Shown in pieces: positions 44,301-56,199 of a DNA stretch of 64,000 nucleotides. Each line of letters starts with the position of its first letter. The first letter of the stretch is position 1. A model generated the notes under the pieces. The model had not been told where the DNA came from and made no database searches. It saw only the letters and a program-made list of their open reading frames with translations. Source of the DNA: Lentisphaerae bacterium ADurb.Bin242. Lineage in GTDB: Bacteria; Verrucomicrobiota; Lentisphaeria; Victivallales; UBA1829. The position numbers and the translations under genes were made by a program. Location: positions 1 to 64,000 of the forward strand of contig MWCA01000002.1 of NCBI GenBank assembly GCA_002069785.1. The letters run 5' to 3'.

Positions 44301-44868
44301 GGGAGTCCGTTTCCTGCTGGTGGTCAATAATCATTGGACAACCGGATTCCTGAGCCGCTGTGCCGCAGATCAATCCCCGCGCGGATTCGAATACCGTCCG
44401 TACGGCGTCTCCCAACCGGCTGTTCTGACTGTTTCCGAAGCGGCGGAAACTGTGATCTATGACTTTTCCACCGGACGGAAAGTCCCGTTCCGGAAGGAAG
44501 GGAACCATGCCATATTTGAAACAGTGCTCGCTCCCGGCGGAGGAAAACTTTTCTGCGTTTATCCGTCGGCTCTTTCCCGTCTGGAAATGACCATACCGAA
44601 GGATATCCGCCGGGGAGAAACTGCGGCATTCCGGTGCGTTCTGACGGATGGAACCGGGAAAAATGCGCCGGGACGGCAGATTTTCCGGGTCGAGGTCACC
44701 GACGCCGACGGCCGGCAGACCGATGACGGCGGCTGGCATGTCATGGAAGACGGCATTCTTTCCGTTCCGGTCCGAATCGGATCGGACGCCCCATGCGGCA
44801 CCTGGAAAATCACGGTCTCGGAACACACGTCGGCATTGACAAGCACTCATTCGTTCTCCGTCCGCTGA
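41317..44868 (+). CDS. Giant secreted GH42-like hydrolase with LamG-like domain
   Basis: An 1183-residue exported protein. MRFPFAVILPLSGILSLAA is the signal peptide. Residues about 225-410 resemble a LamG/concanavalin sandwich (WIHLAVTWDKKESCMYVDGK). A barrel region follows at about 510-840 (FDLLKLNPMSCRREDTEFAK; LVWTEPGFSAGIF with a candidate glutamate). Residues about 845-960 resemble the amidotransferase-like domain of GH42 enzymes (YSIVILPMASKISRELHERL). AAAGGA lies before the ATG. It is the last gene of the LacI operon that starts at 30670. The secreted enzyme probably attacks the polymer while the GH42-like protein at 32701 acts inside the cell. Confidence 0.82.
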   Translation: MRFPFAVILPLSGILSLAADSGKEPLLAVDFDSPIRIGQTRKDNPLPENGYREGRFGKGYCFERPAVNFLPRPVALPESAKGFRPGAGSSLSIANAALSLRGASFSIPEFETDLKQETVFPRTALTISCEVKGPRGAQVTVSVHFAPWKATDAQKEKILAGSRKKEPFSPDSAGSKTYRLTGEWQRIAAFAETDGRCAANRTASVEMILSGAEEASFRHFQAEQTMRHPYRTHAPTSWLPGKNSRPAGSSGLCLTDQFLQQNFPINEGTAALYAFLPEEPGFPRANSPFFGFGQGWRKPMWQFRPRRFEAGASGAVSLKKELPSNRWIHLAVTWDKKESCMYVDGKLWGQSSRQNCSMEGREKCVFSIGKTLWPEESADAVLDEFLLFGRVLPPEEIAQLAFSNKPFMPPAGESFRIAPFSVHPFFRDDPNAGIPLEIHAENEGKIRAELESFERIAKEFSLKQGWNRIHLPFHPDRRSPGKGLLRITLYDGNGKNFYTFSAPYEVRGAVRRDLVRILSWGGDGETPLEYLQKLGINAVNTSPGKWEEEATRLGMLVNFDFRNHKELQKNNFDVLKTLQESRNEIHRMRGRYNWYGTLLNSEAYGAWGNFSEWKTKYPVLLDHARKSLGFDPPFDLLKLNPMSCRREDTEFAKDESGIYEKTGCAYRFLDWYVNEGHPVIALNNANAKTVREADPQNLVWTEPGFSAGIFRQTDMGGAWAYLVTLQEVAGKLRREWGRIRSAGRKYFQPTLTMYYWINSREKAVLDGKKYFMTRSVDELKADCWAAIGMVPMHDLCFFNAYAWYDAENTGQKFLPGQGMSDEFGRFMKQEFYPSALLLRDTEEPPARVALFVPEEISFYSEKSWEYYRTMCMWERNLSLYNIHFDVVYSASLTQRALEDYSIVILPMASKISRELHERLLALAPKARIVADNHCKREYPGLLRLNYTHNPGRPYDQKTFENIFPFLKELEVSGTGRSFRAEGKSGNVMYFERMYKGVRFLLVVNNHWTTGFLSRCAADQSPRGFEYRPYGVSQPAVLTVSEAAETVIYDFSTGRKVPFRKEGNHAIFETVLAPGGGKLFCVYPSALSRLEMTIPKDIRRGETAAFRCVLTDGTGKNAPGRQIFRVEVTDADGRQTDDGGWHVMEDGILSVPVRIGSDAPCGTWKITVSEHTSALTSTHSFSVR

Positions 44869-46221: not shown

Positions 46222-46956
46222 ATGAAAAAGAGAAGAGAGACGTTCACATTGATAGAACTTCTCATCGTGGTTGCGATCATCGCAATTCTGGCGGGAATGC
46301 TTCTGCCCGCGCTGAATAAGGCGAGGGAAAGGGCCCGGGCTGTTCAATGCGTCAATAACCTGAAACAAGTCGGCATCGTCCATGGTCTATATCAATCGGA
46401 CTACAATTACTGGCCGTTCAACCTGTCCCGCTCTGCGGTGGACGGCACGTATGTATGGTGGGAAAATCTGAGAAAACTGGAGGGATTGAAGAGACTCAAC
46501 ACGATATGCCCGACGGTATACCCTGACGCAACAACCGAGGCAAGGGCTCTTGGAATCAATCGTTACCAATGCTACGGACAGGAGGCCATGATGTCGAACG
46601 GCTATGTGAGGGCGAAAATGGACACCGGATATTTCAGCGTCGACGGGACCGGTTCCTTCATCGATGTCGCAAAATTGAAGAATCTTTCCTCGTTCCCGTG
46701 CGTTTCGGATTCCCGGGACAACGCCATCGGAAGCAGCATCATGTCGCAGGCGACGAACATTTATGTGGGCACGTACGGCGTCTACTCCCTGCACCACAAC
46801 GGCCGGGGCAACATCCTTTATCTGGATACGCATGTGGGGTCCATCGGGAGCAGCTCGATCATCGAAATGGCCGCTTTCTTCAAGATCAAGGAGGCCTTCG
46901 GCACCTTGAAGGCGATCTATAAGGACAACAACGGGATTCTCAGAACCGTCCAATGA
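46222..46956 (+). CDS. Prepilin-like protein with H-X9-D motif
   Basis: A 244-residue pseudopilin-like protein. Leader MKKRRET, then [18 protein letters not shown] and [17 protein letters not shown]. Near the C-terminus [12 protein letters not shown] keeps the H-X9-D spacing with DT in place of DG. AAAGGAG lies eight bases before the ATG at 46222. It is separated from the GntR gene by 19 bases and from the second pilin by about 26 bases. Confidence 0.9.
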
Positions 46957-46982
46957 AAACCAGGAAAGAGAGGGTGACGAAC

Positions 46983-47450
46983 ATGAACGCCTTGTATTCG
47001 ATTTTCCGGCCGCGAATGGAAGGAAAACATCCTGTCCCTCCTTCTTTCCGCAAGAAATTCACATTAATAGAACTCCTCGTCGTGATTGCCATTATTGCGA
47101 TTCTGGCGGGAATGCTTCTGCCGGCGCTGAACAAGGCAAAAGAGAAAGCGCGATCCATCAATTGCGCGGGCAACCTCAAGCAGCTTTCACTGGCGACTTT
47201 TGCCTATCTGAACGACTACAAAGACACTTTTCCGAAATTGCGCTATACGAGTTCGGGAACCACGCTCGTCGGCTTTTCCGAAATCGTCCGATATTTGAAA
47301 ATCACAAAGCTGAAAAACAGTGCGGTCCACTGTCCTTCGGAGGATTTCGAGGTGCTTTCCAAACGCTACAATTATACGCTGAGCGGAAATCTGAAGTATT
47401 TCTATCAGACGGACTGGAAAAAAGCCCCGTGGGGGAATACCCATCCGTAA
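46983..47450 (+). CDS. Short prepilin-like protein lacking the C-terminal motif
   Basis: A 155-residue pseudopilin-like protein with [18 protein letters not shown] preceded by a 25-residue basic leader and followed by [17 protein letters not shown]. It ends at [10 protein letters not shown], roughly 90 residues earlier than the other pilins, and has no H-X9-DG region. An alternative ATG at 46953 overlaps the stop of the previous gene by four bases. It may be a genuinely small pilin or one truncated by mutation. It lies between the longer pilin and the lyase. Confidence 0.75.
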
Positions 47451-47522
47451 AATCGGAATTTCAGGGTTGAAATCGGCCCCTGAGGGTACATTTTATTCGA
47501 ACTGATCAACATGGAGAGCGAT

Positions 47523-50381
47523 ATGAAGAAAATCCTGCTGCCCGCTTTAGGCGCTGTGATCGCGTTGTCCGCGGCGGAACCCCTGCCGCAGGAGAAAAAA
47601 CCCGCGGTCCTGCGCTTCGACCTGAGTTCCACCGGACTCGAAAAGATGAAGAACGGAAACCGGCTCTGGCATATTCCGGCGGACAGAGAAAGCAGTAAAA
47701 TCGTCTTCGACCTCGACAAGCTGGGCGTTACGCCCAACGATTACGATGAAATCCGCGTTCTATTCTGCAACCGCAAGGGCGTCGCGGGTCTTGCCGCGCG
47801 CCTCACCAATTATCCCGCGACGGACCAGCTCCGCAACTGGTATTCCAAAACCGCCCTGCCGGAAAACCAGTTCATCGACCAGCGTTTCGACCTGCGGATG
47901 GACGACGACGGCTGGTGGTTCGGAAATCCGGTCATGGACGGGCACAAACTCGAACTGACCCTTCTCAAGAAATACAAACGCGTCCCGGGTGAACCGCCCG
48001 GCCGCGAAGTCGAAATCGCCGCCGTCGAACTGATCCGCCGGAAAGCCGACCTGACGTTCGATGAAACGGCGGCGGTCCTGAGTGCCGACCCAAAATCCAT
48101 CTCATGGAAATACCATCTGGAAATATTAAACCGCGAAGCCGTGCCGCAGAAACTGGAACTCTCTCTCGACACCGGCGGACTGAAGCATTTCAAGGCCGAC
48201 TGGACGAAAAAGACGCTGTCGCTCGGACCGCGCGAAAAAGTGAACCTCCCGCTGGTCCTCTCCATTCCCCGTTCCGAAGCGGAAAAACTGCCTCCGCTCT
48301 ACAGCGAACGGGTTCTGCCGAAACTGATTTTCAAAGACGATCCGCCGATCTTTCCCCTGATCGGATACCGTCCGCGCTACGTATGGGCGACCCTGCCCGT
48401 GGAAAATGTCCGGGTTTCCCTTGCCGTGCCGAAAACGGACCGGGAGCGGAAGGAGCTGACCGCGAAAGCCGAAGCGGCCGCCGCAAAGACTTTTGCCGTT
48501 CCACCGCAGGTCCATCCGGAATACTGCGCGATCTTCAAGCCGCGGGAGATGGAAGCGCTCTCCTTCTACCGGGTGCGCGACCGCAAGACGGGCGAGGACA
48601 TCAGCAAAAAACCCGGCGTCACCGGGTCGTACATCTACCACCACAACGAACAGACCTTCCGCGACCTGAAACTCATGGCTCAGGCGTACAAGCTGACCGG
48701 GAATCCCGCCTACGCGGAAAAAATCCGGGACATCCTGCTGGAATACGCCCATTGGTTCCGGTATCTGCCGCCGCGCGGCCCCTCCTCCACCGGCGGCGGG
48801 TCGCGGTTGACCTCGACGACGCTGGACCTCTGCTACTTCTTCACGGACGGCGTGGAAGCATACGTCGCGGTCAAGGATTCGCCCGTCTTCGGCAAGGCGG
48901 ACCGGGAAAAGATCGAATCCTCCTTCCTCGCGCCTCTCATGAAGAATCTTTATTCCCATGACATCGAATTCACCAACATGCAGCTCCATCATATCGCGAA
49001 CTACGGTTCCGCCGCCATTCTGCTGAACCGTTACTGGAACCTGCTCGGAGACGCCCTGTACGGCGACCACGGATTCTACGCCTTCGTCCGGGACGGCTTC
49101 ACCGCGGACGGCATTGCATTGGAAGGCGGCGCCTATCATCCGTTCGGACTCCTTCCCCTGCTGGATTTCGCCGCCAAAATCCGCGAATGCGGAATCGAGC
49201 TGGTCAACGATCCTTTCAAACGGATTTTCGACCACGGCATCCTCTGCACCCCGCAGGGAATCGCCGACGGCAATCTCCGTTCCACCTACCCGCTGGCCTG
49301 GGAACGTTTCCGCGATCCGAAGTATCTGCCGACCCTGAAACTCATGAAGAAACTGCCGCCCGGAATTCAGGCGAAGGACGTGCCGGACACGCTGTTCCTC
49401 GGGAACACCCTCCAGAAGAACAACGGCTATCTCTGGATCAGGGAAGACGGTCCTTACGGTTTCCGCGCCATCGCAATCAACTATATCATGGGCTGGGACC
49501 GTCTGGAGCACGACCGTCTGAACTTCCGTCTCTTCGATCACGGAATGCTTTCCCACGAGGTCAGCCGGGTCGGCTACACGAATCCCGGTGCGGACATGGA
49601 GGCGACCGTCTCCCACAACACGATCGTGGTCGACGAGAAAAATTCCGCGCCCAATCCGTCCGCGCTGGCCGCGTTCCTCGACCGCAAGGGCCTGCCGGGA
49701 GCGCTGTTTACGGAAAATCCACAATCTCCGCTCTATCCGGACATTGCGTTCTCCCGCGTCATTGCGCTTTTCGACGGCATCCTGTTCGTGGGCGACAGGC
49801 AATACGCGAAGGACGGCAAAGTCCATACCTTCGACTGGCCGTTCTATGCTCCCTGGCAGCCCTGGGCAAAGGAAGGCGAATGGGAGTTCTCCCTTCCGGG
49901 CGATTTCCAAACTCCGTTCAAGACCTCCTATCGTCACGTGGCTTCCGCCGTCTCTTCCCCCGTGAAAGACGGCCTGAAGGCTTCGGTCGACATCCCGCCG
50001 TCCACCCTTGAGAAAGGGTTCGACGTCAGGCAAAAGTCCGACCGGCGCCTTTCTATGACTTTCGCCCTGCCCCGGGAAACGACGGCGGCAAAGTTCCGGA
50101 TCGGGCGCGGACACAATCCCAAACCCGGCCCGATGCTTCTGCTCCGCCAGCAGGGAAAGGACGCCGAATTCGCCGCTGCGTTCGACACGGTCAAAACCGG
50201 CGGGAAGGAACGAATCGAAAGTGTCCGCTCCCTCCCCTTCGAGCCGGCCGATCCGCTCTCCGCCGTCTGGGAAGTCAAGGCGGATTCAGGAACGTATTAC
50301 GTCATCGTGAACCGCACGGGAAAAGAACTGAAAGCCGGAAACATCAGAACCAACCAGCAGTTTGAGGTCATCAAGAAATGA
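47523..50381 (+). CDS. Secreted heparinase II/III-type polysaccharide lyase
   Basis: A 952-residue exported protein. MKKILLPALGAVIALSAA is the signal peptide, and GGAGAG lies before the ATG at 47523. Residues about 320-640 form the helical toroid of alginate/heparinase-type lyases (FTNMQLHHIANYGSAAILLN holds the usual N and H pattern; DGIALEGGAYHPFGLLPLLD). Residues about 650-900 are the heparinase II/III-like sheet domain (VSHNTIVVDEKNSAPNP with the H-N-T signature, and KVHTFDWPFYAPWQPW). Such lyases cleave uronate-containing polysaccharides by beta-elimination in the periplasm or outside. It overlaps the next gene by four bases. The exact polymer is unknown. Confidence 0.85.
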   Translation: MKKILLPALGAVIALSAAEPLPQEKKPAVLRFDLSSTGLEKMKNGNRLWHIPADRESSKIVFDLDKLGVTPNDYDEIRVLFCNRKGVAGLAARLTNYPATDQLRNWYSKTALPENQFIDQRFDLRMDDDGWWFGNPVMDGHKLELTLLKKYKRVPGEPPGREVEIAAVELIRRKADLTFDETAAVLSADPKSISWKYHLEILNREAVPQKLELSLDTGGLKHFKADWTKKTLSLGPREKVNLPLVLSIPRSEAEKLPPLYSERVLPKLIFKDDPPIFPLIGYRPRYVWATLPVENVRVSLAVPKTDRERKELTAKAEAAAAKTFAVPPQVHPEYCAIFKPREMEALSFYRVRDRKTGEDISKKPGVTGSYIYHHNEQTFRDLKLMAQAYKLTGNPAYAEKIRDILLEYAHWFRYLPPRGPSSTGGGSRLTSTTLDLCYFFTDGVEAYVAVKDSPVFGKADREKIESSFLAPLMKNLYSHDIEFTNMQLHHIANYGSAAILLNRYWNLLGDALYGDHGFYAFVRDGFTADGIALEGGAYHPFGLLPLLDFAAKIRECGIELVNDPFKRIFDHGILCTPQGIADGNLRSTYPLAWERFRDPKYLPTLKLMKKLPPGIQAKDVPDTLFLGNTLQKNNGYLWIREDGPYGFRAIAINYIMGWDRLEHDRLNFRLFDHGMLSHEVSRVGYTNPGADMEATVSHNTIVVDEKNSAPNPSALAAFLDRKGLPGALFTENPQSPLYPDIAFSRVIALFDGILFVGDRQYAKDGKVHTFDWPFYAPWQPWAKEGEWEFSLPGDFQTPFKTSYRHVASAVSSPVKDGLKASVDIPPSTLEKGFDVRQKSDRRLSMTFALPRETTAAKFRIGRGHNPKPGPMLLLRQQGKDAEFAAAFDTVKTGGKERIESVRSLPFEPADPLSAVWEVKADSGTYYVIVNRTGKELKAGNIRTNQQFEVIKK

Positions 50382-51607
50382 AAAAGTTGTTATTTGCCGT
50401 ACTGGCCGCCGCCTCGCTCGGACTCCACGCCGATCTCAAGGAGAAAGTCTTCAAATTCATGCCTCTTCAATCCGACCTGGGGGTGATTTCCGGAAACGGA
50501 ACCCGCTCGCAGGAAGCGGTCTTCACCCGCGAATCCGCGGCGTTCACCCCGGACTTCAAGCGCTTCGAGACTAACATTCCCCGTTTCTTCAACGGCGGAC
50601 TCCTGATCGAAAACGGCGGAAAAACGCCCGAACGCGGCGCATGGAACTTCCTGCCCGCCGGAGTCCCGTTCCTGGAGGGCGGCAAAACGGTCAAGGGAAT
50701 CCATGGCGACGCGTTGGAATTTTCCGGAGCCAAGACACTGAAGGCAATTCCGCTCAAAACCGGCGGAGCGCATGTCTTTTCTTTTTACGCGAAAGGAAAA
50801 GGAAATCTTTCCCTGACGCCTCTCCTGAATCTGAAAAGCGGGACCGCGAAAAAACTTCCGGCGGCCGGCTTCCCCCTGACCGCCGAGTGGCAGCGGTTCC
50901 ATGTTTCCTTCTCCGCCGGAAATCCGGCGAAAGACGCGGACCCGGCGCTCTCCTTCGGCGGCTCATTCCAGGCTGAAAACGTAACGGTCGGCGCACCGAT
51001 GCTGGAAGGTCCCTGCATCTATTTTCAGACATTCTCTCCGAGCACCTACATCCCGAACGGAGCCTTCCGCGCCGCGGACAAGCTGAAACTTCCGGTCATC
51101 ACGCCGGAACTGGGAACGGAAGGAGCCTTCGCCTTCGTTTTCGAACCGACTTCGCAAGGCTGGTGGCAGGCGCTCCTTTCCGCGGGCGGCGGATGGAAAC
51201 CGGAACTGGAGCTTTCTTACAATGTCTACGCTCCGACCAATACGCGCCTCACGCTCCAGTTCCGCGGGAAAAAGATGCTGGCGCAGGCGCGTCTTGCACT
51301 CGGACAGAAGTATCATCTGCTCGTGAATTACACGAAAGACGGCTTTTCCCTCTGGCTCGACGGCAAAAAGCTTGGAGAAGAGAAAGCTCCCGGAGCTCCG
51401 TTCACCACAAAAGACCTCTTTCTCGGGAGCCGCGACATCGAAATCAAATCCAACGGAATCTTCCGCAATTTCGCCATCTTCAAAGCGCCCCTGGATGATG
51501 CGGAAATCAAAGAACTCTTCCTGAACGCCGACCTGACGAAGCTTCTGCCGGCGAAGGAGGTTTCTCTCGCCAGCCCTTTTGTGTGTTCCCCGTCAACGCG
51601 GGGATAA
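50378..51607 (+). CDS. Giant hydrolase, N-terminal part (LamG-like), zero frame of a split gene
   Basis: A 409-codon frame with signal peptide MKKLLFAVLAAASLGLHA. Residues about 225-395 form a LamG/concanavalin-type sandwich (HLLVNYTKDGFSLWLDGKKL). It starts inside the stop of the lyase gene (ATGA) and stops at 51605-51607. The downstream frame (51583-54021) continues in the -1 frame with the barrel and amidotransferase-like domains that follow a LamG-like domain in the gene at 41317. Joined, the protein would be about 1214 residues, like its relatives here. Split by programmed frameshift, mutation or sequencing error (see 51554-51603). Confidence 0.8.
   Translation: MKKLLFAVLAAASLGLHADLKEKVFKFMPLQSDLGVISGNGTRSQEAVFTRESAAFTPDFKRFETNIPRFFNGGLLIENGGKTPERGAWNFLPAGVPFLEGGKTVKGIHGDALEFSGAKTLKAIPLKTGGAHVFSFYAKGKGNLSLTPLLNLKSGTAKKLPAAGFPLTAEWQRFHVSFSAGNPAKDADPALSFGGSFQAENVTVGAPMLEGPCIYFQTFSPSTYIPNGAFRAADKLKLPVITPELGTEGAFAFVFEPTSQGWWQALLSAGGGWKPELELSYNVYAPTNTRLTLQFRGKKMLAQARLALGQKYHLLVNYTKDGFSLWLDGKKLGEEKAPGAPFTTKDLFLGSRDIEIKSNGIFRNFAIFKAPLDDAEIKELFLNADLTKLLPAKEVSLASPFVCSPSTRG
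51554..51603 (+). promoter_or_regulatory. Candidate -1 programmed frameshift signal
   Basis: Three elements in order: AAGGAGG (51554-51560) as an internal Shine-Dalgarno; the slippery heptamer C CCT TTT (51574-51580) in the correct zero-frame phase, 13 bases later; and a hairpin CCCCG/CGGGG (51588-51603, six-base loop) seven bases after it. The zero-frame stop TAA follows at 51605. The -1 frame then reads TGT GTG TTC CCC into the downstream domains. GTGTGT at 51581-51586 could also have gained two bases by slippage, which would explain the split as a simple mutation. Confidence 0.45.
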
Positions 51608-54021
51608 GCACAATTCTGTTCGACAGCGCCAAACCGGCCGCCTCGGCGGAACTCCGGATCGCTTCCTTCAAAACGGGAACCGTCGAAGTCACGGGAAACC
51701 GCCTGACCTGCCGTTTCGATCCCGCGCTGCTGATGCCCGGAAGTTATTCGCTGGAACTCGCCTGCCGGTTCACGGACGGAGCGACTGGAAATTTTTCCTT
51801 CCCGATCAAGGTCGGCAAGGCGCTGCGTCCCTGGGAAAATGTTCAGGTGAACACCTGGAATGAATACCGTCCGGAGTTCGAAGGGTCCGGCGTGACAATT
51901 GCCGCCAGCGGCCTGGAAGCCCACAAGATCGACGCCCTTGCGGAAAAACAGCTTTACGGCAATTACAACCTGAATTATTTCGGAACGCCGCGCCCCGGAT
52001 ATCCGGAAGACGTTGCGGTGGATTCGTCCGGAAAAACGCTCTATCCGGACATCCGTTCTCCCTATCTCAAAACAGATGTTTCGGAATATGGCCGGAAAGT
52101 GGCGGAAGCCATCAAGCTGGCGCCCACCTTCAAGGCGATCGTGCTGAACTCGGAACATCATGCGGGCGGCGCGGGCAACTGGGCCAATTTCTCCCCTTCG
52201 GAACTTCGGCGCGCCCGTTCGTTCGGGCTTGACCTTGAAAAATGGCGTCTGACCGGCGAAAAAACCAATGAAAGTTTCCGGAAATTCATGCCGATGGGCT
52301 ACCTCGGAACCACCGTCGCGCCGGAACTCGTGCCGGAATCCCGCGCCATCCCGGCAGACAATCCGCTGTATGCCTATCTGCTCGACCATCACGGCCCGGA
52401 CGGCGGAACCGAGGTGGTCATCAACGACCTGCTGGCGGAAGCCATCCTCAAAGTGCGCCCGGACCTCCTGATGATGCAGGACCCTGTAATGCGGCGTCCC
52501 GCCCTGCGGAGTTATGAAAAAATCAATGTCGCACAGGACTGGTTTTATTACACCGAGCTTTCCGTGATGGTGAACGGAGTCGAAGGACTCGGAGCGGTCC
52601 GGCGTGGATTTCCGGAAATGACGACCTCCACGATGCCTCAGTTCCTCTTCAAGGAGGGCATGGCCGCTCCGTTCGCCGGAATGCCTCCGCGCGACATGTT
52701 CCGGGAAGCCTGCTGGATCGCGGCCAGCCGTCCCATGCGCGTCATTTCCTTCTGGAACACGGGCAATGCTTTCCTCAAAGGCAATCAGATGACGGCGGAC
52801 GAGATCAAGGAACTGCTCGGCAATGCGGATTACGCACAGACCGCAAAAACAATGAAAGAGAAAAAAGCGAATCCGTTCTGTTTCGATCCGAGGCTGAAGG
52901 AGGAATTCCGCTCCCTTTCGGAAACACTCTGGGTTCCGTTCGGCGCGCTGATGCCCAACTGGGAAAACGCTCCCCGGAAACTTGCCGTGGTCAGGAGTTT
53001 CGCCTCGGATTTGTTCGGAAATGTCCGCTGGCCCAATACGGGCGTAATCGGCACAGCCATTGCCGAGTCCGGAATTCCTTTCGACATTCTGCTGGACAAC
53101 GACCTCGAAAAAGGGATCGGAAACTATGATGTGATCGTGCTTCCGAACTGTTCCGCCCTGCCGGAAAAGGGCGTGAACAATCTCCGCGAATTCATCCGGC
53201 GCGGCGGAACCGTCGTCGCCGATGACAAACTGAAAGTCAAGGGGCTGGAGGGAGCGGTCATTCTTCAGGGCCCGGCCCAATGGGACGAGGAGGCTTTCCG
53301 TCAGAAGGAACAGGAAATTCTCCGGCAGGCGGGCGGAAAAACCGATACGCCCGCATATATCGAAGCCATGGAGGAACTTCAGAAAGAGACGGACAGGCAA
53401 AAGCAGACGCCCGGGCTGAACGAACTCCTCCGGAAACGCCTCAAAACGACTTTTTCCACCTCGAACACGAATCTTTTCTGGAATCATCTCCGGGCCGGGG
53501 ACGCCCAATATCTCTTCGTCGTGAACGATCTCCGCATTCCCGGCGAAATCTATGGCCGTTTCGGAAAGGTCAGGGAACAGGGAGTGGCGCAGAAGGTTTC
53601 CTTCAGGATTCACGATCCGAAACTCCGTCATGCCTTCCATCTGAACTCGAACACTCCGATTCCCGTGAAAAATGGAGAAATCTCCCTTGAACTTCCGCCG
53701 TCCGGAGGCAATATTATACTCTTTACGGAAAAACAGCCCGGAAGGTTCGCTGTTTCCGCGGAGAAGGAAGTCAGGCGGGGAGCACGCATGTCCGTGAAAC
53801 TCTCGCTCGAAAACGGCTCAGGGTTGATTCCCGTGAATCTGGAACTCTTTCTTCCCGACGGAACACGCTCAAGCCTTTCCCGCTGGAATGTTTTGAAAAA
53901 CGGGTCGCTCGCATGGGAGTTCACGATTCCCCTGAACGCGCCGGCAGGAGACTGGCGCATCCGCGCCGCGGAGTCGGCGACGGGACAGGTGAAGACTTTC
54001 TCCTTCCGGGTCGCGCCATAA
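51583..54021 (+). CDS. Giant GH42-like hydrolase, C-terminal part, -1 frame of a split gene
   Basis: An 812-codon frame with no signal peptide and no proper ribosome binding site (a GTG at 51583 lies 22 bases after AAGGAGG). Residues about 75-450 look like a barrel (AIVLNSEHHAGGAGNW with a candidate glutamate; NVAQDWFYYTELSVMVNGVE). Residues about 470-560 resemble the GH42 amidotransferase-like domain (YDVIVLPNCSALPEKGVNNL; FIRRGGTVVADDKLKVKG). It lacks everything N-terminal, so it is best read as the continuation of 50378-51607. The Gfo/Idh gene follows after 37 bases. Full-length production depends on a frameshift or on a sequence correction. Confidence 0.75.
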   Translation: MFPVNAGISTILFDSAKPAASAELRIASFKTGTVEVTGNRLTCRFDPALLMPGSYSLELACRFTDGATGNFSFPIKVGKALRPWENVQVNTWNEYRPEFEGSGVTIAASGLEAHKIDALAEKQLYGNYNLNYFGTPRPGYPEDVAVDSSGKTLYPDIRSPYLKTDVSEYGRKVAEAIKLAPTFKAIVLNSEHHAGGAGNWANFSPSELRRARSFGLDLEKWRLTGEKTNESFRKFMPMGYLGTTVAPELVPESRAIPADNPLYAYLLDHHGPDGGTEVVINDLLAEAILKVRPDLLMMQDPVMRRPALRSYEKINVAQDWFYYTELSVMVNGVEGLGAVRRGFPEMTTSTMPQFLFKEGMAAPFAGMPPRDMFREACWIAASRPMRVISFWNTGNAFLKGNQMTADEIKELLGNADYAQTAKTMKEKKANPFCFDPRLKEEFRSLSETLWVPFGALMPNWENAPRKLAVVRSFASDLFGNVRWPNTGVIGTAIAESGIPFDILLDNDLEKGIGNYDVIVLPNCSALPEKGVNNLREFIRRGGTVVADDKLKVKGLEGAVILQGPAQWDEEAFRQKEQEILRQAGGKTDTPAYIEAMEELQKETDRQKQTPGLNELLRKRLKTTFSTSNTNLFWNHLRAGDAQYLFVVNDLRIPGEIYGRFGKVREQGVAQKVSFRIHDPKLRHAFHLNSNTPIPVKNGEISLELPPSGGNIILFTEKQPGRFAVSAEKEVRRGARMSVKLSLENGSGLIPVNLELFLPDGTRSSLSRWNVLKNGSLAWEFTIPLNAPAGDWRIRAAESATGQVKTFSFRVAP

Positions 54022-54058: not shown

Positions 54059-55216
54059 ATGAAAGTCAGGACAGCGCTGGTCGGCATCAACGGATATGCC
54101 GGGGTTCATCTGCAACATTTGAAAAAATTGGAGAAGGACGGTCTGATCGAAATGACCGCCGCGGTCATTCTTCCTCACGAGAGAACCCCGGAAAACACCG
54201 AATGGCTGCGGTCCGCGGGCTGCGGAATCTACGATTCTCTGGATGACATGTTCCGGCAGTCTCCCGCAAAACCGGAGCTGGTCTGCCTCCCGGTGGGCAT
54301 CCCCTCCCACGAACCGCTGACGGTCTGCTGTCTTGCGAACGGCGCAAACGTGCTGCTGGAAAAACCCGCCGCCGGATCGCTCGAGGCGGTGGACAACATG
54401 CGCCGGGCCGAGGCGGAATCCGGCGGATGCTTCGTCGCGGTCGGTTTCCAGCATGTCTATTCCCGCGAAATCCAGCAGATCAAAAGAATCCTGCTTTCGG
54501 AACAGCTCGGAAAACTCGAATCGGTCTCGGTCATGGGCATCTGGCCGCGGACCAGGATTTATTACAGCCGTAACGGCTGGGCCGGAAAAATCAAGACGCC
54601 ATCCGGAGCGATTGTCCTCGATTCCCCGATCAACAACGCTTTCGCACACTACCTGAACGTCCCCCTCTTCCTCGCCGGGAATGCGTTCGAAAAATCCGCG
54701 CACCCCGTCGAACTGGAAGGGCAGCTCTACCGGGCGCGCACGGACATCGAATATTTCGACACCTGCGGACTTCAGGCAAAAACCGCGGATGGAATCTCCC
54801 TGCGCGCCTGTTTCAGCCATGCCTCGGATGTGACCGTCCATCCCCTTCTCACACTCAAATGCCGGGATGGAATCATCCGGATCGATTTCGGGAACAGCCG
54901 CTGGAACATTTCCGGCAAGGACGGTTCGGTTCAGAAGGATGAACCTATGACTTCCCTCCACGCGGACATGTTCCTGGACGTGGTTCGCAAGGTCTCCGAC
55001 CGTTCCGTTTTCACCTGTTCCCTGGACATCGCCCGCGAACACACCTTCTGCATCGAATGGCTCTATCGCAACTGTGTCCAGAAAGACCTTTCCCCAACCA
55101 GTGTGGAATATCGCAAAGACACGGAACAGGCGGTCATCCCCGACCTCCCCCGCATCTTCCGCGAATATTTCGAGAATTCCGGCCCGCTCATTCTGGAAAC
55201 AGGAAACGTAAAATGA
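54059..55216 (+). CDS. Gfo/Idh/MocA family oxidoreductase
   Basis: A 385-residue oxidoreductase. The Rossmann fold opens with KVRTALVGINGYAGVHLQHL (G-x-N-G-x-x-G), and ANVLLEKPAAGSLEAVDNM carries the E-K-P motif, followed by VAVGFQHVYSREIQQIKRIL and the second sheet domain. Cytoplasmic; NAD(P)-dependent. It overlaps the next Gfo/Idh gene by four bases (ATGA). Both follow the split hydrolase, so they probably process the sugar it releases. Confidence 0.88.
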   Translation: MKVRTALVGINGYAGVHLQHLKKLEKDGLIEMTAAVILPHERTPENTEWLRSAGCGIYDSLDDMFRQSPAKPELVCLPVGIPSHEPLTVCCLANGANVLLEKPAAGSLEAVDNMRRAEAESGGCFVAVGFQHVYSREIQQIKRILLSEQLGKLESVSVMGIWPRTRIYYSRNGWAGKIKTPSGAIVLDSPINNAFAHYLNVPLFLAGNAFEKSAHPVELEGQLYRARTDIEYFDTCGLQAKTADGISLRACFSHASDVTVHPLLTLKCRDGIIRIDFGNSRWNISGKDGSVQKDEPMTSLHADMFLDVVRKVSDRSVFTCSLDIAREHTFCIEWLYRNCVQKDLSPTSVEYRKDTEQAVIPDLPRIFREYFENSGPLILETGNVK

Positions 55217-56199
55217 AACTCTGCTGCATCGGTTCGCGCGGACATTGGGGATATGTTTTCGAAAGCCTCCGGGAGGTCCCATGTGTGGAACTCGCCGGAA
55301 TCAGCTCCGGCTGCGAAGATCCCATTGACAAAATGCGCCGGCGCTGCGCGGACGCCGGATTCACCCCGCGGGAATTCAACGACTGGCGGAACATGCTGGA
55401 CGAACTTCGCCCGGATATGGTCTGTATCGACGGCCCTTTTGAAAAACATGCCGAAATGTGCATCGAAGCCTTCCGCCGCAACATCCACATTTTCTGTGAA
55501 AAGCCGATTGCCCTGACTCTCTCCGATCTGGAGCGTCTGGAACAGGCGGCCGCCTCCTCGAAATCCAGAATCGTCTCCATGGTCGGCCTCCGCTACGATC
55601 CGGCGTTCTACACTGCCCGGAAACGGGTCCGGAAGGGGGCCGTCGGCAAGATCAAACTGATCCAGTGCCAGAAATCCTACAAGCTCGGAAAACGTCCCGC
55701 CTTCTTCCATGCCCGTGCCACGTACGGAGGCACCCTCCCCTGGGTCGGAAGCCATGCGATCGACTGGATTCTGTTTTTTTACGGAGACGCCGATTTCCAT
55801 TCCGTTTTCGGCGCACAGAGCCGGGAAGACAACTTCGGCAACGGCGACATGGAAATCACGGCGCAGTGTCTCTTCCGCATGAAAAGCGGAGTGATTGCTT
55901 CCGTCAGCACCGACTATCTGCGGCCCGCCGCGGCTCCGACGCACGGAGACGACCGCATCCGCATCGCCGGAACCGGGGGCGTCCTGGAAGTCTCCGGCGG
56001 AAAAATCACCCTCATCGACGCGAACGGCACGTCTGAAATTGTCCCGGAAATGCCCGACCGGAAGCTGTTTTCCGACTTCGTGCTGGACATCGAAGGAGTC
56101 CGGCCCGGCCTGGTGGACAACGCCGCCACATTCGCCCTCACCCGCGCCTGTCTTCTCGCTCAGGAATCCGCGGACACAGGAAAAGTCGTCTTCTTCTGA
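55213..56199 (+). CDS. Second Gfo/Idh/MocA family oxidoreductase
   Basis: A 328-residue oxidoreductase starting with MKLCCIGSRGHWGYVFESLR (nucleotide-binding turn), then IHIFCEKPIALTLSDLERL with the E-K-P motif, and VGLRYDPAFYTARKRVRKGA. LPWVGSHAIDWILFFYGDAD is the usual substrate-side H-x3-D-W stretch. The ATG lies inside the stop of the previous gene; a longer frame extension upstream is rejected. It is the last gene of the GntR operon and converges on the pilin gene 56208-56936 with an eight-base gap. Two different enzymes in tandem suggest two oxidation or reduction steps. Confidence 0.88.
   Translation: MKLCCIGSRGHWGYVFESLREVPCVELAGISSGCEDPIDKMRRRCADAGFTPREFNDWRNMLDELRPDMVCIDGPFEKHAEMCIEAFRRNIHIFCEKPIALTLSDLERLEQAAASSKSRIVSMVGLRYDPAFYTARKRVRKGAVGKIKLIQCQKSYKLGKRPAFFHARATYGGTLPWVGSHAIDWILFFYGDADFHSVFGAQSREDNFGNGDMEITAQCLFRMKSGVIASVSTDYLRPAAAPTHGDDRIRIAGTGGVLEVSGGKITLIDANGTSEIVPEMPDRKLFSDFVLDIEGVRPGLVDNAATFALTRACLLAQESADTGKVVFF

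Follow-up and report, generated by a model that had tools for sequence, protein, structure and literature searches.

The locus raises the question of whether a hydrolase gene divided between two reading frames is a damaged or misread gene, or one whose two products are set by programmed -1 ribosomal frameshifting. The window analyzed was a stretch of 64,000 nucleotides (positions 1 to 64,000 of contig MWCA01000002.1) from Lentisphaerae bacterium ADurb.Bin242, the assembly of which comprises 303 contigs; the features of the locus are listed in Table 1. The ATG of ORF1 overlaps the stop codon of an upstream lyase-like gene in an ATGA sequence, and a lyase-like gene lies upstream of every LamG or LamG-barrel copy examined in the family. 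The barrel frame lies one base back from that of ORF1, ends at position 54021 and encodes 812 amino acids when counted from a GTG at 51583. Reading ORF1 and the barrel part through a -1 shift gave a stop-free product of 1214 amino acids. The two-frame split described in the original prediction was confirmed, but its overlap of 51583 to 51607 began at the first GTG; the barrel frame is open upstream as far as a TGA at 51496 to 51498, and hence the real overlap spans about 51499 to 51607.

Table 1. Features of the split gene and its junction in the window
Feature	Coordinates	Strand	Details
Lyase-like gene	47511..50381	+	956 aa; partial oligoalginate-lyase match, far under cutoff
ORF1, zero-frame product	50378..51607	+	Signal peptide, jelly-roll (CBM4_9-like), LamG; 409 aa
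Internal Shine-Dalgarno-like AAGGAGG	51554..51560	+	13 nt ahead of heptamer; same sequence and spacing in G008:C52
Slippery heptamer C_CCT_TTT	51574..51580	+	Zero-frame phase; identical in G008:C52
-1 frame, post-shift	51580..54021	+	Ig-like domain, GH42-like barrel, MG2-like end; 813 aa
Hairpin CCCCGTCAACGCGGGG	51588..51603	+	7 nt past heptamer; identical in G008:C52
Zero-frame stop TAA	51605..51607	+	Ends LamG-only product; offset +31 in both split genes

An AAGGAGG, a C CCT TTT heptamer 13 nt later and a GC hairpin 7 nt after it had been reported at this junction, and all were present as described. The heptamer is in the zero-frame phase inside the ORF overlap and is the sole in-phase X_XXY_YYZ sequence there. 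As C_CC.U_UU.U, it belongs to the H_HH.U_UU.Y class of efficient Escherichia coli heptamers (PMC4066793). Both spacings fall within the published ranges, which are 9 to 14 nt for the Shine-Dalgarno (SD) sequence in bacterial -1 shifting (PMC5009743) and 4 to 10 nt downstream for the hairpin that usually partners a slippery site (PMC4066793). The hairpin had a folding energy of -9.3 kcal/mol on its own, and the 48 nt downstream folded at -18.6 kcal/mol (z, -3.1). Its core is short, at 16 nt, and known stimulators are often longer. A second small hairpin is present a few bases past the first (51612 to 51630), with one of different sequence at a similar place in the other split gene, and may be part of the stimulator. 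An Rfam search gave no match. In-phase heptamers of any kind were found at 8 of the 2539 codon positions of the split gene and neighboring genes. When the same peptide was recoded with the gene's own codon usage, the heptamer together with AGGAGG arose in 0.5% of draws and an equally strong hairpin in 0.1%.

The closest copy of the gene (G008:C52) was located on JAFVTF010000051.1, from the metagenome-assembled genome of a sheep-colon Lentisphaeria bacterium of the same family but another genus. The two split genes shared 54% identity in protein and 60% in DNA. The frames of the orthologue break at the same nucleotide as those of the window, with the barrel again in the -1 frame, and its ORF1 encodes 414 amino acids with the C-terminal end ...CITPFVSTPSTRG. 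The junction reads AAGGAGG - 13 nt - CCCTTTT - GTGTGTT - CCCCGTCAACGCGGGG - A - TAA in the window and AAGGAGG - 13 nt - CCCTTTT - GTGTCTA - CCCCGTCAACGCGGGG - A - TAA in the orthologue. Alignment of orthologues, proposed as a check of the prediction, thus found the overlapping split, SD sequence, heptamer, hairpin core and UAA at identical spacing. Because the core hairpin is identical in both genes, it provides no informative pairs for covariation. The known split sequences number two, and both apparently come from metagenome-assembled genomes.

Substitution analysis of this pair detected dS values of 2.6 for the LamG half and 4.6 for the barrel half, which are saturated, and dN values of only 0.45 and 0.36, respectively, indicating that each half continued to be maintained as a protein-coding sequence for a long time after the frames had separated. 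Synonymous conservation across the gene was most extreme in a 20-codon window starting from AAGGAGG, where 13 of the 15 codons for shared residues were identical versus 6.0 expected. The observed rarity-weighted value was reached in 0 of 200,000 independent draws (P about 5e-6), even though the two genes differ in GC3 content (68% and 47%). Both genes retain codons required by the signal (GAG, CCT, GGG and ATA) that at least one of them otherwise uses rarely. Over this divergence, and with a sample of two sequences, the split and the signal were kept and synonymous change was reduced.

The gene family is rare, being present in 5 of 137 genomes of the order. Four other barrel-bearing copies (G021:C40, G015:C8, G008:C94 and G050) are single ORFs of 1218 to 1230 amino acids, to which the -1 product of the window aligns without gaps; at the junction, G021:C40 and G015:C8 read SPFTVFPVNAG, and the window reads SPFCVFPVNAG after the shift. 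Neither the heptamer nor the AAGGAGG was present at the junction in any of the four in-frame copies, and the hairpin was absent there in both of those folded (G021:C40 and G008:C94). A search of genome contigs for more orthologues detected none by protein and JAFVTF010000051.1 alone by pattern, and no orthologue was found on viral contigs. Class and phylum searches revealed no further split gene among close homologues, with several class-level matches lying at contig ends, where they could not be judged. With up to 3 mismatches allowed, the heptamer-hairpin cassette occurred in this gene and its orthologue only among 388 genomes of the phylum. Reuse of the cassette elsewhere in the genome was also considered and rejected, as matches to AAGGAGG plus CCCTTTT were at or below the control level.

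The signal peptide of ORF1 was recognized by eye and is followed by a jelly-roll with a weak CBM4_9 match. The LamG part matched Laminin_G_3 with an E value of 9e-8 and 32.8 bits, above the curated cutoff of 27.6, and has a lectin-like jelly-roll fold, as is characteristic of LamG/concanavalin A-like domains. Foldseek matches of this half to laminins, sialidase lectin domains and clostridial toxin binding domains were generic for the lectin fold (TM about 0.3) and carry no information on toxicity. In predicted structures, ORF1 (pLDDT 78) has an unstructured tail at residues 395 to 409, and the barrel part (pLDDT 88) is structured from its second residue, starting with the Ig-like domain; the shift site would therefore lie in an inter-domain linker. 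The best Foldseek matches to the barrel part were GH42 beta-galactosidases (E about 1e-16, TM 0.4 to 0.5, 10 to 13% identity). A match to the GH42 trimerization domain (Glyco_hydro_42M) was weak, with an E value of 4e-4 under the curated cutoff, and the barrel part gave no match to the Pfam Glyco_hydro_42 catalytic domain at an E value of ≤1. A conserved NSE (residues 190 to 192) and E335 are candidate catalytic residues only. The barrel part is accordingly described as GH42-like, a predicted likeness mainly of fold, and GH42 membership is not claimed; it differs from GH42 beta-galactosidases in having extra Ig-like and MG2-like domains.

With the signals and the split conserved in the nearest relative and the whole signal absent from in-frame homologues, the predicted programmed shift was supported, and we consider it highly probable, as judged from sequence, that classical -1 frameshifting would yield a LamG binding protein and a LamG/GH42-like enzyme. 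Ribosomes translating ORF1 would pass the AAGGAGG, which is able to pair with 16S rRNA, and would meet the GC hairpin with CCT (Pro) in the P site and TTT (Phe) in the A site. A fraction would slip one base back to CCC TTT and continue through ...SPF-CVFPVNAG... into the Ig-like and GH42-like part, while the remaining ribosomes would reach the TAA after eight further codons and release the LamG-only protein for secretion. A single gene would in this way supply, at a set ratio, a LamG-enzyme of 1214 aa and a carbohydrate-binding-type protein in free form. We infer the slippage itself, its efficiency, the secretion and the ligand of the LamG protein.

Separate initiation of the barrel, either at an internal start or through translational coupling to the zero-frame stop, would produce an enzyme lacking LamG and the signal peptide with no frameshift at all. 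The AAGGAGG would make a good SD sequence for such a start, coupled restarts near a stop codon are common in bacteria, and the barrel frame has the GTG at 51583; however, the orthologue has GTC instead, and the two genes have no barrel-frame ATG, GTG or TTG in common within SD range, making restart at an internal start codon unlikely. The first shared ATG lies 159 nt past the heptamer and would remove most of the Ig-like domain. Furthermore, the product would have no signal peptide, and this route would not account for the conservation of the heptamer and hairpin. Overall, we regard separate initiation as improbable.

Still less credible is that the split arose from an error of sequencing or assembly or from a recently acquired inactivating indel, the real gene then being a single frame or a young pseudogene. 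Only metagenome assemblies are available, and the GTGTGT tract, a two-base gain in which had been offered as the simple alternative, does occur in the window. The independently assembled, strongly diverged orthologue, however, has the same break and signals but GTGTCTA at this position. As the nearest relative is equally split without GTGTGT, the two-base-gain alternative fails, and uninterrupted relatives with GTGT in place of GTGTGT were looked for and not found. The frames are also open over 400 and 813 codons, with purifying selection on both. Retention of the same slip signal in a diverged relative indicates that the split reflects neither a sequencing error nor a dead gene. Transcriptional slippage at the CCCTTTT run, giving mRNAs in different frames, would likewise make two products and exploits homopolymer runs too, but it is very unlikely here. 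The run is only T4, and selection against slippage-prone runs typically becomes apparent at a length of about nine A or T (PMC1088944); polymerase slippage also has no need for AAGGAGG, a heptamer in phase or a hairpin at the spacing suited to ribosomes.

Programmed frameshifting at this gene would make two proteins that relatives encode separately. In a LamG tree, the two split genes grouped with LamG-only genes of 395 to 396 amino acids (G015:C94 and G021:C80), and the family's in-frame genes formed a second group with a third LamG-only gene (G008:C94); the inner forks had support values of 98/99 and 99/99, and a lyase tree gave the same two groups. The LamG-only genes occupy the operon position of the split gene and, like it, overlap the same lyase-like gene at its end. 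Downstream of both G015:C94 and G021:C80 is a terminator-like hairpin with a T run, and comparison of this pair detected purifying selection (dN, 0.018; dS, 0.162). In G008:C94, lyase, LamG-only and in-frame LamG-barrel genes are in tandem. Each type of protein is thus a gene product in the family, and both would be made from the split gene. The stand-alone LamG-only genes also support the short product being useful. The barrel may have been lost from G015 and G021 or, alternatively, acquired by the split gene. A transposase-like ORF (L029:3297-4226) lies downstream of the LamG-only gene of G021:C80 and is a possible cause of barrel loss. We lean towards a broader reading in which, in a secreted polysaccharide-degrading system of gut Lentisphaeria, conserved -1 frameshifting would set the ratio of free LamG-type binding protein to LamG-tethered hydrolase, with sister lineages obtaining the same two products from separate genes as an interchangeable solution for stoichiometry.

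The cassette is classical, and it is the gene that is new. To our knowledge, few cellular bacterial genes use -1 frameshifting to give two functional products. The arrangement resembles that of E. coli dnaX (tau/gamma) in its internal SD sequence, X_XXY_YYZ heptamer and downstream hairpin and in products that share their N-terminal part; it differs in having C_CCT_TTT rather than A_AAA_AAG, in an unrelated gene for a predicted secreted enzyme, and in the shifted product being the longer one. E. coli copA similarly provides a large protein, CopA, and its free N-terminal ligand-binding part, CopA(Z), from one gene. The short copA product comes from the shift, whereas the shift here would yield the long one, and the genes have no sequence relation. 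In other bacteria the small copA protein is encoded by a separate gene (PMC10187127), which parallels the LamG-only genes of relatives here. In a few bacteria, dnaX itself is reported to have the longer product as the shifted one (PMC5009743). A glycoside hydrolase depending on a -1 shift, as proposed here, is represented by fucA1 of Saccharolobus solfataricus, a GH29 alpha-L-fucosidase made only via -1 frameshifting between two ORFs (PMC8211752). That gene is archaeal, uses A_AAA_AAT, has a short product without a known role and is split in strains of one species only; the gene described here is bacterial, has an SD sequence, is conserved across genera and breaks between domains. No bacterial carbohydrate-active enzyme with programmed frameshifting was found in the open-access literature searched, though one may have been described elsewhere. 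The shift proposed here would free a secreted binding module from the enzyme to which it belongs, and a natural comparison is offered by relatives that make these parts from separate genes. Annotation records such genes as pseudogenes or as a pair of ORFs, and hence other enzymes may be hidden likewise.

Several further observations were made in the vicinity. Upstream of the lyase-like gene, positions 46953 to 47450 encode a pseudopilin-like protein of 165 amino acids, and copies ahead of the same operon have 253 (G008:C52) and 255 (G021:C40) amino acids, indicating that the C-terminal part is missing in the window. Positions 44395 to 44862, within an open frame of 1194 amino acids, weakly matched the C-terminal part of the barrel protein (E value, 3e-7), which identifies this nearby segment as an apparent distant paralogue. 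Downstream of the split gene, two GFO/IDH/MocA-type oxidoreductase genes occupy positions 54059 to 56199. The mechanical start of the second, 55057, overlaps the first gene, and its real start is probably further in.
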